Below, in pieces: positions 4,617 to 16,399 of a stretch of 64,000 nucleotides of DNA (position 1 is the stretch's first letter; every line of letters starts with the position of its first letter). Where the stretch lies: NCBI RefSeq assembly GCF_036227605.1, contig NZ_CP109487.1, positions 8,605,001-8,669,000 on the forward strand. The letters are read 5' to 3'. Position numbers and translations under genes: made by a program. Origin of the DNA: Streptomyces sp. NBC_01439 (GTDB lineage: Bacteria > Actinomycetota > Actinomycetes > Streptomycetales > Streptomycetaceae). The notes under the pieces were generated by a model that saw only the letters and a program-made list of their open reading frames with translations, made no database searches and was not told where the DNA came from.

Positions 4617-4761
4617 GGACCTTCCCCATATTCCCCGGACGTCCGCCGATACGTCCGGCGAGTCATGACGTCACAGGATGTCATGGACCGCAATGTGATG
4701 ATCGGTCCGGCTGTGGGCTTCCTTGTTACGCTCCCGCTTCGGCAAGGGGGAGGGACAGGGC

Positions 4762-6177
4762 ATGGGCGATCGGTGGACCGGGCTGCTGCACGGGCTCGTA
4801 GCGAACACGGCCGCACCGGCGGATGTGCTGGTGCGCCTGCTCGGCCACGAAGACGAGTGGGTGCGACGGGCGGTTGCGCGGCGCGCCGTGCTGCCGCAGG
4901 AGGTGGTCGAGGCCGTTCTGGTCCACCCGGACCGCCACGTACGGATCGCCTTCGCCGAGAACGGCAACGCCGCACCCGAACAGCGCGCCCGGCTGGTCGA
5001 AGACCCGAGCCCGGGGGTCCACCTCGCGCTCGCGGTCGGCCCCCTGACCTACCGGCAGCAGGTGGCCCCCCTGCCCGACTGGGCCTACGAGCGGCTGCTG
5101 AACCATCCCAGGGACCTGGTGCGCCGGGAACTGGTCGAGTGGGGCGGGACGCCCGCCCGCGTCCTGGCGGGGCTTGCGGACCACGTGGATCCGATGTTCC
5201 GTCGGGCTGCCTGTCGAGGTGCCTGGCGGGAGCTCCCGGACGCCGCACGGCAGCGTCTCCTCCACGACGACGACCACGAAGTGCGGCGGGAGGCCGCCGA
5301 ACAGGTCTGCCACGAGGACGAGGAACGGACTACTTGGCTGGTCGGGGAACTGGGCGACGACTGGCGGGCGACGGACGTCCTGCGGAACGGCCGGCTCAGC
5401 CGGGAGCTCGCCGAACGCGTGGTCGTCGAGGGGGAACGGCTCCCGGCGATCGCCGGTAACCCGAGCCTTGCGCCCGACCTGGTGGCGCGCCTCGCCGACG
5501 ACCCCGACCCGTGGGTCCGGCTGGCGGTCTCCGCACGCCCCGAGCTCAGTGAGGCCGAGCGCGCCGCCATCGACTACACCGTGGACCCCGAGGCCCGGCT
5601 GGGCACGCTCGACTGGGTGTGGGGGCGGCGCGAGGACGCCGAGTTCCTGCGCCGGTGCGCCCGGTCCGCGCACACCTGGCTGCGCCGCAGCGCCGCGGTC
5701 TGTCCCGGCCTGCCGGCCGATGCCGTCGAACTGCTTGCGGGGGACGAGGACTTCGCCGTACGCCTGCTGCTCGCCGAGTTCCACCCGGAACCGCCCCCCG
5801 AGCTGCTCCTCGACCTCTATCTGAACGGCACCCACCGCGCCGTACTCATGCTCGTCGCCCGGCCGGGCTTCCCCGCCGCCGGGCTCGCCGCCCGCTTCGG
5901 CGCCTCGCCCGATCCGGAACGCCGGCGGCTGGCCCTGCGCGATCCCGGTCTGGAACCGGAACTCCTCGACCGTCTCAGCCGGGACCCCGATACGCGTAAA
6001 GCTGCCGCCCGGCACCCCCGGCTCCCAGTGGCCCGGATCCGCGAACTGCTCGCCGATCCGGACACCGAGGCCGCCGCGGCCGCCAACCCCGCGCTGCCGC
6101 CTGAGGACATGCGCCGGTTGCTGGACCGGGCGGGCGTGCCGGAAATCCCGGTGAATGATCGGACAATCGACTGCTAG
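4762..6177 (+). CDS. Leucine-rich-variant (LRV) helical repeat protein, 471 aa
   Basis: The whole protein is built of about 24-residue helical repeats of the type 'DPsPxVRxAvAxrpdLpxexxxxLa', typical of the LRV/HEAT-like solenoid (PF01816 family). Examples are LLGHEDEWVRRAVARRAVLP near residue 25 and LADDPDPWVRLAVSARPEL near residue 240. Such solenoids are protein-binding scaffolds; no catalytic motif is visible. The cysteines that accompany the founding Azotobacter LRV protein are not apparent at the N-terminus. The ATG at 4762 is preceded by a GGGAGG box. Its TAG stop is also the first half of a -10-like element for the next gene. Confidence 0.8.
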   Translation: MGDRWTGLLHGLVANTAAPADVLVRLLGHEDEWVRRAVARRAVLPQEVVEAVLVHPDRHVRIAFAENGNAAPEQRARLVEDPSPGVHLALAVGPLTYRQQVAPLPDWAYERLLNHPRDLVRRELVEWGGTPARVLAGLADHVDPMFRRAACRGAWRELPDAARQRLLHDDDHEVRREAAEQVCHEDEERTTWLVGELGDDWRATDVLRNGRLSRELAERVVVEGERLPAIAGNPSLAPDLVARLADDPDPWVRLAVSARPELSEAERAAIDYTVDPEARLGTLDWVWGRREDAEFLRRCARSAHTWLRRSAAVCPGLPADAVELLAGDEDFAVRLLLAEFHPEPPPELLLDLYLNGTHRAVLMLVARPGFPAAGLAARFGASPDPERRRLALRDPGLEPELLDRLSRDPDTRKAAARHPRLPVARIRELLADPDTEAAAAANPALPPEDMRRLLDRAGVPEIPVNDRTIDC

Positions 6178-6186: not shown

Positions 6187-6918
6187 GTGCCGAAGCTGAA
6201 TCAGATCATCGCAGTGGAAAAGGGCGTCAAGTCCAAGTCCCTCCAGGAGCTCACCCAGGCTCACCACGACGTCCAGAAGCCCGCCCTGCTGGCCGGAATC
6301 TCCCGGACCTACCAGCCCAAGGACGAGGAGGGCGAGCAGCTGCCGCCCGAGTCCACCCGGGTGCAGGTCAAGGCCGAGGACGTGCTGCGGGCGACGGCGG
6401 GAACCCTGACGCGGCTGTTCGACGTAACGGCGACCAAGGACTGGGCCAACCGCACCGCGGCCGCCGACGTCGTCGTGGACGGGACGGTCCTGCTGGCTCA
6501 AGTGCCCGTGCCGTACCTGCTCTTCCTGGAGAAGCAGCTCACCGACATGCACACCTTCGTGCGGAAGCTGCCGGTACTGGACGCCTCCGAATCCTGGAAC
6601 CTGGACCCGTCCACGGACTCTTGGAAGACGGACGCGGTGCGCACCATTCGCACCAAGAAGGTGCCGCGCAACCACGTGAAGGCCGAGGCCACCGAGAAGC
6701 ACCCGGCCCAGGTCGAGGTGTACTACGAGGACGTGCCGGTCGGGTACTGGACGACCGTGAAGTTCTCCGGTGCGCTGCCCGCCCGGCGGGTCAACGAGCT
6801 GATCGACCGCGTGGAGAAGCTCCAGCAGGCCGTCAAGTTCGCCCGCGAGGAGGCCAACAGCGCCGAGGTCACCGACCAGCGGGTCGGCGACGCGGTGTTC
6901 GGCTACCTGTTCAGGTAG
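6187..6918 (+). CDS. DUF7873-family protein, 243 aa
   Basis: The product is soluble and highly charged, with no signal peptide or membrane helix. It starts PKLNQIIAVEKGVKSK, has a central segment rich in lysine and tyrosine (VEVYYEDVPVGYWTTVKF) and ends in a coiled-coil-like helix before GYLFR. I recognise it as the DUF7873 family; from memory, close relatives occur in actinobacteriophages as well as in Streptomyces. No enzymatic motif is evident. It starts with GTG without a ribosome-binding site. Its transcript would continue straight into the two tRNA-like units at 6974-7225, with no good terminator until 7271, so a role linked to those RNAs is an attractive inference but unproven. Confidence 0.8.
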   Translation: MPKLNQIIAVEKGVKSKSLQELTQAHHDVQKPALLAGISRTYQPKDEEGEQLPPESTRVQVKAEDVLRATAGTLTRLFDVTATKDWANRTAAADVVVDGTVLLAQVPVPYLLFLEKQLTDMHTFVRKLPVLDASESWNLDPSTDSWKTDAVRTIRTKKVPRNHVKAEATEKHPAQVEVYYEDVPVGYWTTVKFSGALPARRVNELIDRVEKLQQAVKFAREEANSAEVTDQRVGDAVFGYLFR

Positions 6919-6929
6919 CCCACAGAACC

Positions 6930-6951
6930 CCTCCCGTATGTCTGCGGGAGG
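6930..6951 (+). other. Hairpin directly after the DUF7873 stop codon
   Basis: CCTCCCG at 6930-6936 pairs perfectly with CGGGAGG at 6945-6951 across an 8-nt loop. It lies 12 nt after the stop codon and 23 nt before the first tRNA-like unit. There is no U-run, so it is more likely a processing or stability element than a terminator. Confidence 0.5.
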
Positions 6952-6973
6952 TGCGCGAGAGCGCAAGCTGAAA

Positions 6974-7078
6974 CTGATGTTGAAGCTGAACGAGGGTGTC
7001 AGTTGGGGGTTCGAATCCCTCCCCCGGCATTGCGAGCCGGGGTGGCCCAAGCTGGTAGAGGCGGCCCTTCAATCTCAG
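6974..7078 (+). tRNA. Circularly permuted tRNA-like gene A (3' half precedes 5' half)
   Basis: The 3' half comes first. It contains an anticodon-stem strand AGGGT (6993-6997), a T-arm GGGGG-TTCGAAT-CCCTC (7005-7021), the 3' acceptor strand CCCCGGC (7022-7028) and discriminator A. After a 6-nt spacer comes the 5' half, with acceptor strand GCCGGGG (7036-7042), TG, D-arm GCC...GGC with the GG of the D-loop (7045-7062) and anticodon-stem strand GCCCT (7064-7068). The acceptor pairs 7/7 and the anticodon stem 5/5 counting one wobble. CTGATGTTGA (6974-6983) and TCAATCTCAG (7069-7078) extend the anticodon stem. They leave a 9-nt bulge whose loop CTGAACG would give anticodon GAA; this reading is tentative. 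CCA is not encoded, and the variable region is 7 nt. Confidence 0.6.
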
Positions 7079-7124
7079 ATTATCGCTCCAGTCTCAGTAT
7101 TCGCCGCCGAACACCGGATCGACC

Positions 7125-7233
7125 GAGCGTGGACGATCATCGATGGATAGGGGTTCAAGTCCCCTCTGCGCCTCTCCTCGTGGCGCGGTAGTTCAAAGGT
7201 AGAACACGTCGATCTAAGAATGATCCGCGACTC
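7125..7233 (+). tRNA. Circularly permuted tRNA-like gene B (3' half precedes 5' half)
   Basis: The 3' half has an anticodon-stem strand CGATG (7141-7145), a T-arm AGGGG-TTCAAGT-CCCCT (7149-7165) and acceptor strand CTGCGCC (7166-7172). After 9 nt (discriminator T plus 8) the 5' half follows, with acceptor GGCGCGG (7182-7188), TA, a textbook D-arm GTTC-AAAGGTA-GAAC (7191-7205), A26 and anticodon-stem strand CGTCG (7207-7211). The acceptor pairs 7/7 with one wobble. GATCAT (7135-7140) and ATGATC (7220-7225) extend the anticodon stem around an 8-nt bulge ATCTAAGA. CGTG/CGCG and GAG/CTC extend it further. The loop could present anticodon CUA, which would read UAG, or AAG if the helix slides by two pairs. 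The variable region is short at about 3-5 nt. Confidence 0.6.
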
Positions 7234-7245
7234 TTAAACGTGCCG

Positions 7246-7301
7246 GTGTGCGCAATTGGGTGGCACACAGGAGCCCGGGAGCTGGATATGCTCCCGGGCT
7301 C
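7246..7301 (+). terminator. Terminator-like hairpins after the tRNA-like pair
   Basis: A first hairpin pairs GTGTGC (7246-7251) with GCACAC (7263-7268). A second pairs GAGCCCGGGAG (7271-7281) with CTCCCGGGCTC (7291-7301), an 11-bp perfect stem with a 9-nt loop. No U-run follows, as is common in Streptomyces. It is the first strong stop signal downstream of the DUF7873 gene and so marks the likely end of its transcript. Confidence 0.65.
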
Positions 7302-7318
7302 CGTCACGTTCCGGCCCG

Positions 7319-7367
7319 CGTTCCGGTCTGACCGTTCCGGTCAGACCGGAACGGTCAGACCGGAACG
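7319..7367 (-). terminator. Perfect 22-bp stem-loop ending the sigma/anti-sigma operon
   Basis: Bases 7319-7340 are the exact reverse complement of 7346-7367, with a 5-nt loop TCAGA. The arms are themselves built of repeated CCGGTCTGAC / GGTCAGACCGG units. The stem covers the last three codons and the stop of the anti-sigma gene. It could block transcription from both sides, since the tRNA-like locus converges on it. Confidence 0.75.
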
Positions 7368-8080
7368 GACACGAACGTCCGGCCCGACTCGTTCTCCACC
7401 AGGATCGCCTTGACGTCCGCCGGGTCCACGGCCGCCGAACCGTCCAGCGCCGCGCCCTTGGCCTCGCCGTTCTCCTGGCTGCCCGTGACCCAGCCGGCGG
7501 CCGTGGTGCGCGTGCCGTTCTTGGAGACCACGACCAGCCGGCACCGCTCGCCCGGCGGTACGCCCGTGACCGCCGCGTGCACCCGCACCCACTTGGTGGC
7601 GGGCGTCATCTGTACGGTCATCCGCGCACCCGTGGCCTTGTCGGTCGCGGAGAGCACCTTGGTCCCGGCAGGCGGTGGGGAAGGGTTGGCCGTGGCCGTC
7701 GGGGACGGCGGCACGGGCAGCGCCTCGGTGTCCAAATCGCCCGTACCCAGCTGGGTACCGGCCCAGAACACGGCGGCCAGCGAAGCGGCGACCGCCAGTC
7801 CCGCGAGGCCCGCGCGCCGCCGCGAATCACCGGCCCGCTCCCCGCGCATCTGCCGCAGGGTGCGCTGGAGCAGCAGGTCACCGCCGTGCGGCGGTCCGTC
7901 GAGGAACGCCTCGTCGGGCACCTCGCCCAGAGCCGCCTCCATCTCGCGCAACGCGGCCACCTCCTCCCGGCACTGCCCGCATCCGCTCGTGTGTTCCTCG
8001 ACCCGGCGGATCTCCTCGGGGTCCAGGACGCCGAGTACGTAGGGGCCGAGCAGTTCCTCCTCGTGCCTCTGCCGGTTCAT
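7355..8080 (-). CDS. Membrane-anchored anti-sigma factor with HxxxCxxC zinc motif
   Basis: This 241-residue protein has an N-terminal cytoplasmic anti-sigma domain carrying HTSGCGQC, the HxxxCxxC zinc-binding signature of ZAS proteins, near residues 30-37. One membrane helix follows (about residues 90-112, AGLAGLAVAASLAAVFWAG), then a proline/threonine linker and an extracytoplasmic domain of about 100 residues. It should hold its partner sigma factor inactive at the membrane until a signal is sensed outside. It starts at 8078-8080 in an ATGA overlap with the sigma gene stop. The extracellular ligand is unknown. Confidence 0.9.
   Translation of the reverse strand: MNRQRHEEELLGPYVLGVLDPEEIRRVEEHTSGCGQCREEVAALREMEAALGEVPDEAFLDGPPHGGDLLLQRTLRQMRGERAGDSRRRAGLAGLAVAASLAAVFWAGTQLGTGDLDTEALPVPPSPTATANPSPPPAGTKVLSATDKATGARMTVQMTPATKWVRVHAAVTGVPPGERCRLVVVSKNGTRTTAAGWVTGSQENGEAKGAALDGSAAVDPADVKAILVENESGRTFVSVPV

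Positions 8081-14593: not shown

Positions 14594-16399
<1,806 letters not shown>

Follow-up and report, generated by a model that had tools for sequence, protein, structure and literature searches.

Circularly permuted tRNA genes, in which the 3′ half stands ahead of the 5′ half, are established in red and green algae and in the archaeon Thermofilum, and the genes of two-piece tmRNAs are also permuted, with CCA sometimes encoded. Bacterial Y RNA is a tRNA mimic, and its structure 6CU1 overlays tRNA in circularly permuted order (PMC11472068). In YrlA, the basal stem is reported to bind Rsr/Ro60 and the head PNPase (PMC8394870), and it has been suggested that the tRNA-like domain competitively inhibits an anticodon nuclease (PMC7790460).

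Here we describe a locus within a 64,000-nt stretch of Streptomyces sp. NBC_01439 DNA (the window, that is, the whole stretch analysed), in which two permuted tRNA-like units follow a gene of the DUF7873 family. The original prediction had read the units as two permuted tRNA genes and knew of no permuted case in bacteria, a statement that the Y RNA structure 6CU1 corrects. As in the algal and Thermofilum genes, the 3′ half lies upstream of the 5′ half and the acceptor stems match; the window RNA differs from them in lacking a conserved anticodon or fixed loop, and one of its heads can be lost. With two-piece tmRNA it shares the permuted tRNA-like domain and a CCA encoded in some members, but it has two heads and no above-threshold tmRNA match. 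It resembles YrlA in its permuted D/T/acceptor head with a closed acceptor stem, in the basal stem formed by the outer strands (by covariation in unit B; the outer pairs of unit A hardly vary), in adjoining one protein gene and in occurring in phages too. Unlike YrlA, it has DUF7873 rather than Ro60 (TROVE) as its neighbour and candidate partner, lies downstream of its gene (the Ro60-linked RNAs at three loci, L166, L033 and L047, lie upstream of theirs), unites two heads in one conserved RNA with other core motifs, and stays below the Rfam gathering score of 69. Instead of two permuted tRNA genes, the locus probably encodes a Ro60-independent, two-headed Y-like RNA forming a ribonucleoprotein with DUF7873. 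In the literature searched on permuted tRNA in bacteria and phages, DUF7873 and Y RNA, no description of an RNA–DUF7873 cassette was found, and none of the papers covered mentions DUF7873.

Architecture of the locus

The product of the gene at 6187-6918 matches PF25283 with an E-value of 1.3e-120 (402 bits against a curated cut-off of 27), and the RNA, about 300 nt in size and with two tRNA-like heads, lies just downstream. The elements of the locus are as follows.

6187..6918, + strand: DUF7873 gene (PF25283), 243 aa, GTG start; putative protein partner of the RNA by synteny
6930..6951, + strand: short hairpin (CCTCCCG..CGGGAGG) in the gap between gene and RNA core; its arms co-change in alignment A5, judged by eye
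6965..6989, + strand: upstream strand of the conserved core, carrying CTGA blocks (AAGCTGAAACTGA..CTGA); entropy about 0 at three CTGA blocks
6990..7029, + strand: unit A 3′ half, with anticodon-side strand, T-arm 7005-7021, acceptor 3′ strand CCCCGGC 7022-7028 and discriminator A 7029
7030..7035, + strand: acceptor loop of unit A, following the discriminator; other members have N-CCA at this place, the window does not
7036..7068, + strand: unit A 5′ half, with acceptor 5′ strand GCCGGGG 7036-7042, D-arm 7045-7062 and anticodon-side strand
7069..7110, + strand: conserved middle core (TCTCAGATTATCGCTCCAGTCTCAG..), low entropy
7111..7138, + strand: unit B basal stem 5′ strand, with ACACCGG, internal loop ATCGACC and GAGCGTGGA
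7139..7173, + strand: unit B 3′ half, with stem strand 7141-7145, T-arm 7149-7165, acceptor 3′ strand CTGCGCC 7166-7172 and discriminator T 7173
7174..7181, + strand: unit B acceptor loop
7182..7211, + strand: unit B 5′ half, with acceptor 5′ strand GGCGCGG 7182-7188, D-arm 7191-7205 and stem strand 7207-7211
7212..7249, + strand: loop at the anticodon place, variable by entropy, followed by the basal strand, which carries conserved CTTAAACG and CCGGTGT
7270..7302, + strand: 13-bp hairpin with loop TGGATAT; candidate RNA 3′ end

Two tRNA-like units in tandem, each with its 3′ half first (7005-7211), are thus present as originally predicted, with T-arms and D-arms in both and with both acceptor stems paired 7/7 where the prediction had placed them. 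Its further statement that no acceptor strands match in a linear reading held in part: the linear alternative is worse than the permuted one, yet it is not empty, with 5/7 pairs in the window. When the 5′ strand of unit A was read with the 3′ strand of unit B in the 89 two-unit loci described below, 7/7 pairs formed in one locus, 6 in two, 5 in 51, 4 in 12, 3 in 22 and 2 in one. ARAGORN and Rfam at gathering threshold reported nothing at 6974-7233, and neither a promoter-like nor a terminator-like site emerged from a simple scan. The hairpin at 7270-7302 is probably the 3′ end of the RNA.

Directly upstream, an LRV/HEAT-repeat gene (4723-6177, + strand) ends 9 nt ahead of the DUF7873 gene on the same strand, and in a plasmid locus (L032) a different gene takes its place. 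A palindrome cluster (gaccgttccggtcagaccggaacggtc and partners) is located at about 7315-7370, just 3′ of the RNA. Elsewhere in the window, the 91-nt tRNA-Pro(cgg) called by ARAGORN at 15676-15766 (− strand) was unconfirmed by Rfam at gathering threshold and is probably false.

Permuted units across DUF7873 loci

We compiled 123 loci from 80 named genome contigs, 29 viral contigs, 10 of 73 phage records, the window, and L032, L033 and L034; most were gathered via DUF7873 regardless of the RNA, the last three were found via the RNA's own DNA, and with near-identical phages among them the loci amount to 120 distinct regions. A strict detector, which demanded a 7/7 acceptor, a TTC T-loop and a D-arm no more than 700 nt downstream of DUF7873, identified at least one permuted unit in 118 of the 123 loci and two in 89. 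The same detector gave 6 raw matches in 1,375,040 nt of other sequence from these loci and none in 2460 Markov-shuffled regions (0/2460); the permuted units are not a product of chance. A covariance model of the permuted units (R1) recovered units at the expected place in four of the five loci missed by the detector (L046, L154, L160 and L162), bringing the combined count to 122/123. In the remaining locus (L066), R1 found no unit near DUF7873 and only weak matches about 2 kb off.

Among the 207 units, N-CCA is encoded in 62 (45/87 A-type and 17/120 B-type), U occupies position −1 in 117, and the acceptor loop is only 4 nt long in 3. In Pseudanabaena phage PA-SR01 (L070:4735-5339), the first T-arm is 604 nt from DUF7873, compared with 123 nt in the related phage Pam2; the extra distance of about 480 nt suggests an insertion between gene and RNA.

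Folding, covariation and conserved sequence

Folded alone, unit B adopts a permuted cloverleaf on its basal stem, with identical MFE and centroid structures (z −2.32; 4/200 shuffles as good); unit A alone gives no permuted cloverleaf by energy (z −0.66; 47/200 shuffles as good). The covariation of acceptor and anticodon-side stems across loci, named in the original prediction as a check, was found in two alignments. Alignment A4 comprises 43 units with distinct acceptor stems, preselected for 7/7 acceptors and hence 100 per cent paired there by construction; it contains 182 double-changed cells, compared with 51 in shuffled and at most 54 in slid controls. Alignment A5 comprises the window and 49 of the 80 genome-contig loci, its rows coming from a protein search with no RNA preselection. 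In A5, 97.5 per cent of 3026 cells are paired, 24 pairs have double changes, and the 231 double-changed cells compare with 67.4 in shuffled and 11-37 in slid controls. The double changes fall in both T-arms, both acceptors and, within unit B, the D-arm, the anticodon-side stem and the two basal helices; the D-arm of unit A shows no variation in A5. Of the basal helices of unit B, 7111-7117/7243-7249 has double changes in 2/7 pairs with 96.7 per cent of cells paired, and 7125-7133/7224-7233 has them in 6/9 pairs with 92.1 per cent of cells paired.

The original prediction had extended each split anticodon stem by a further helix that left a bulge. For unit B a further helix does exist (7125-7133 with 7224-7233), covariation-backed and 9 bp long with one bulged base, but the proposed 8-nt bulge does not hold: the 9-bp helix lies beyond an interior region of 12 + 7 nt, partly paired in the MFE structure. 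For unit A the outer pairs hardly vary, and covariation does not settle the extension of its anticodon stem. Likewise, the middle core (7069-7110) probably pairs in part with 6968-6989, and because the CTGA/TCAG pairs are nearly invariant, covariation does not prove this pairing. A protein-coding reading of the CTGA blocks and their 6-nt periodicity was rejected by eye, since differences are not third-codon-biased and inter-block spacing is not divisible by three in every locus.

Sequence motifs of the core recur among relatives. The loose pattern AAR[CT]TNA occurs in 82/82 Streptomycetaceae and 35/41 other loci (shuffled fractions 0.09 and 0.40), and [CT]TTAAA[CT]G in 53/82 and 13/41, respectively (0.00 and 0.03). 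GGATA is found in a hairpin loop in 51/123 loci, compared with 43/1230 shuffles and 29/805 other stretches, and the same GGATAT-type loop appears in actinophages (L034, L062 and L063) and in a cyanophage contig (L161).

The bases at the anticodon place behave differently from the core. Among 91 Streptomycetaceae rows (deduplicated loci with both units detected, head-loss loci being left out), entropy reaches 1.63 bits at 7214 and 1.65 bits at 7216 of unit B, which stand where tRNA positions 34 and 36 would be, and 1.49-1.69 bits at 6990-6992 of unit A, compared with a whole-RNA mean of 0.53 bits, a 90th percentile of 1.32 bits and almost fixed core blocks. In 90/91 rows, the bases corresponding to 35 and 37 are fixed as T (7215) and A (7217); the anticodon-place loops are often without U33 (T at 7213 in 56/90 rows) and vary in length among relatives. 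The head of unit A is missing in 5 of the 50 aligned loci (L086, L099, L102, L127 and L150), which have a short stretch in its stead and retain the core and unit B.

Linkage with DUF7873

Of 295 same-genus genomes, 142 have DUF7873, and all of these also match the RNA (135 by BLAST and 7 by R1); by these tests the two occur together in 142 of the 144 genomes having either. The RNA match starts 57-218 nt after DUF7873 in the 20 genomes whose positions were compared. Four genomes have a BLAST match to the RNA only: in G261 and G289 units are present with no DUF7873 in the stretch examined, and in G133 and G142 there is no unit. Ro60 is present in 147 of the 295 genomes and is not significantly associated with DUF7873 (both 78, DUF7873 only 64, Ro60 only 69, neither 84; Fisher p 0.10).

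DUF7873 was also found in 73 phage records. Among 22 viral records with DUF7873, TROVE was present in three and no TROVE/Ro60 match was found in 19, some of which may be fragments. A whole-record R1 scan of 17 viral records (E ≤ 1e-8) gave matches in 15, the top match lying just downstream of DUF7873 in 14 of these 15; R1 scores highest at two sites beside Ro60 in Rhizobium phage W09, where the DUF7873 unit ranks third. G688, the 618-kb viral contig of L051, has five more R1 matches of 42.6-57.1 bits far from its DUF7873 (30431, 42568, 349201, 366873 and 375769), which may be tandem tRNAs or more permuted units. Among 14 control genomes, Deinobacterium chartae was the sole carrier of DUF7873 and also of TROVE. 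Gordonia phage Phendrix (L062:2072-2600) has a tmRNA gene of 89 bits in the same tRNA cluster. Two loci (L182 and L184) have a cobalamin riboswitch that follows the permuted unit at a distance of about 150-180 nt.

For the DUF7873 family, 7999 clustered proteins were scored, of which 7553 reached E ≤ 0.001. A confident AF2 model built from an alignment of 68 relatives (pLDDT 92.1, pTM 0.76) combines long helices with a long beta hairpin, and N88, H172, Q175, A219, R220, A223 and N224 are invariant in that alignment. No match at E ≤ 0.001 was found among solved (PDB) and viral structures; the best BFVD row, with E 4.0e-3 and TMq 0.45, was a protein of a crAss-like phage, the TolC rows had an rmsd of 10 Å or more, and Ro60 was not among the matches listed. 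PHROGs and a PDB sequence search returned nothing informative, and none of three DUF7873 proteins compared with PADLOC gave a match at E ≤ 1. DUF7873 may bind the RNA, and as its fold has no solved-structure match at E ≤ 0.001, the case for RNA binding is made by synteny and linkage.

Relation to Ro60-associated Y RNAs

Against the window, the Rfam YrlA model (RF02553) scores 34.2 bits at 6979-7095 and 31.3 bits at 7127-7233, end to end. The two RNAs next to Ro60 in this genome reach 40.6 and 39.5 bits, likewise below the gathering score. The junction of two ordinary tandem tRNAs reaches 29.4 bits (L053:4934-5049). Such sub-threshold scores, together with that of the tRNA junction, argue for a shared architecture and do not show descent from Y RNA; the likeness may be convergent. 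In an R1 scan of the genome, the window units ranked top (68.9 and 65.6 bits), followed by a tandem tRNA-Asn junction (50.5 bits) and by two units at 3.12 Mb (46.2 and 34.1 bits) without ARAGORN genes. The last two lie just upstream of a TROVE/Ro60 gene (L166, about 3120098-3121497) and are ordinary Y RNAs, missed by ARAGORN and below the Rfam threshold. This is the one TROVE match found in the genome; the window RNA adjoins DUF7873 instead. The core blocks of the DUF7873 RNA were not found in three Ro60-type regions checked, except for five loose-pattern matches. In L047 and in Nonomuraea (L033), the DUF7873/RNA pair and Ro60 with its YrlA-like RNAs lie within about 6 kb.

Proposed ribonucleoprotein and alternative explanations

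Building on the observed topology, covariation, conservation and DUF7873 linkage, we propose a two-part cassette, which would comprise DUF7873 and a structural RNA of about 300 nt directly 3′ of it. Each head represents the acceptor/T/D half of a tRNA with a loop closing the acceptor end, and the anticodon stem of each head would continue into a basal stem, giving the circularly permuted gene order. By analogy with bacterial Y RNA, the RNA would act as a scaffold and would not be spliced into tRNAs. Contact with DUF7873 would be made by the conserved basal stems and internal loops (CTGA blocks, TTATCGCTC and ATCGACC/CTTAAACG). The heads, for their part, would dock enzymes of the host that bind tRNA, or compete for them, in the way reported for the YrlA head and PNPase. 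On the one hand, the near-universal presence of permuted units downstream of DUF7873 (118/123 loci, 122 with R1), the covariation, the sub-threshold YrlA matches and the DUF7873 linkage count for a Y-like RNA, and the loss of the A head in 5/50 loci with core and unit B kept, together with the lack of a conserved anticodon, counts for a scaffold. On the other hand, G261 and G289, with units and no DUF7873, and phage W09, with its best R1 matches beside Ro60, count against a Y-like ribonucleoprotein of DUF7873. A pure scaffold also leaves the fixed bases 7215 and 7217 unexplained, and N-CCA in 62/207 units; the N-CCA is the main unexplained point and speaks for an RNA that descends from a tRNA or is processed like one.

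Alternatively, the heads could be counter-defence decoys that occupy or inhibit tRNA-attacking nucleases or other enzymes, with DUF7873 stabilising the RNA so that phage translation is protected, and with the Streptomyces copy domesticated. The cassette does stand among tRNA genes in four viewed phage records, and the YrlA tRNA-like domain has been suggested to inhibit an anticodon nuclease competitively (PMC7790460), but the heads offer no intact anticodon loop as a target and the DUF7873 proteins tried had no PADLOC match, and we regard such a role as unlikely.

Another candidate is a widespread, unrecognised ribonucleoprotein whose acceptor loops would be opened by RNase P and 3′ processing, so that DUF7873 would hold an RNA in several pieces, one or two of its tRNA-like ends being aminoacylated. 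We think such a two-headed tmRNA-like machine, shared by phages and Streptomyces, distinctly improbable. A tmRNA-like RNA as such, its acceptor loops opened by RNase P and 3′ processing into several pieces with one or two chargeable CCA ends, is very unlikely: N-CCA is correctly placed in 45/87 A-type units and two-piece tmRNA genes are permuted too, but just 17/120 B-type units encode N-CCA, the window has none, its best Rfam tmRNA score is 7.7 bits against a gathering score of 47, and ARAGORN finds no tmRNA in it. We give equally little credence to a further Y RNA serving the genome's Ro60 in trans, with DUF7873 as an unrelated neighbour. The genome does have a Ro60 with its own Y RNAs, and in L033 and L047 Ro60 lies a few kb from the cassette, but across the genus DUF7873 keeps company with the RNA in nearly every genome having either and shows no significant association with Ro60 (p 0.10), and most DUF7873 viral records (19/22, some possibly fragments) gave no TROVE match.

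If these were working permuted tRNA genes, as originally predicted, the precursor would be cut at the anticodon-side bulges, its ends would be joined, and RNase P and tRNase Z would set the tRNAs free, as in red and green algae. The 7/7 permuted acceptor stems with canonical T and D arms, N-CCA in some units, U at −1 in 117/207, the fixed T and A at 7215 and 7217 and the annotated RNA ligase gene of Arthrobacter phage Racecar are all in keeping with this. However, no conserved anticodon in a 7-nt loop would result from joining: most bases of the putative anticodons rank with the least conserved positions in the RNA, the region is less conserved than the core blocks, and its loops vary in length. 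The A head is moreover dispensable and acceptor loops can be as short as 4 nt, and the idea of functional tRNA genes therefore found no support and is extremely unlikely. Tandem ordinary tRNAs, on which R1 false positives do occur elsewhere in the window's genome (L165 and L168), were rejected because ARAGORN calls no gene at the locus and no partner halves were seen by eye up- or downstream.

Implications for annotation and for the DUF7873 family

Permuted heads can be mistaken for tRNAs, which calls for caution with tRNA finders: ARAGORN called a tRNA-Ser on one such head (L043) and a tRNA-Pro on a Y RNA head (L047). In Klebsiella phage FBKp24 (L071:5018-5097), an annotated suppressor tRNA (TTA) overlaps the 3′ half of a permuted unit and is likely a misannotation. 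Permuted units are more widespread than the window alone could reveal. A permuted Y RNA head was already known; what is new is the candidate partner gene, DUF7873 instead of Ro60. DUF7873, a family without known function, thereby gains a candidate RNA partner that accompanies it in nearly all loci tested. The finding also suggests that Y RNA-type scaffolds mimicking tRNA can occur independently of Ro60.
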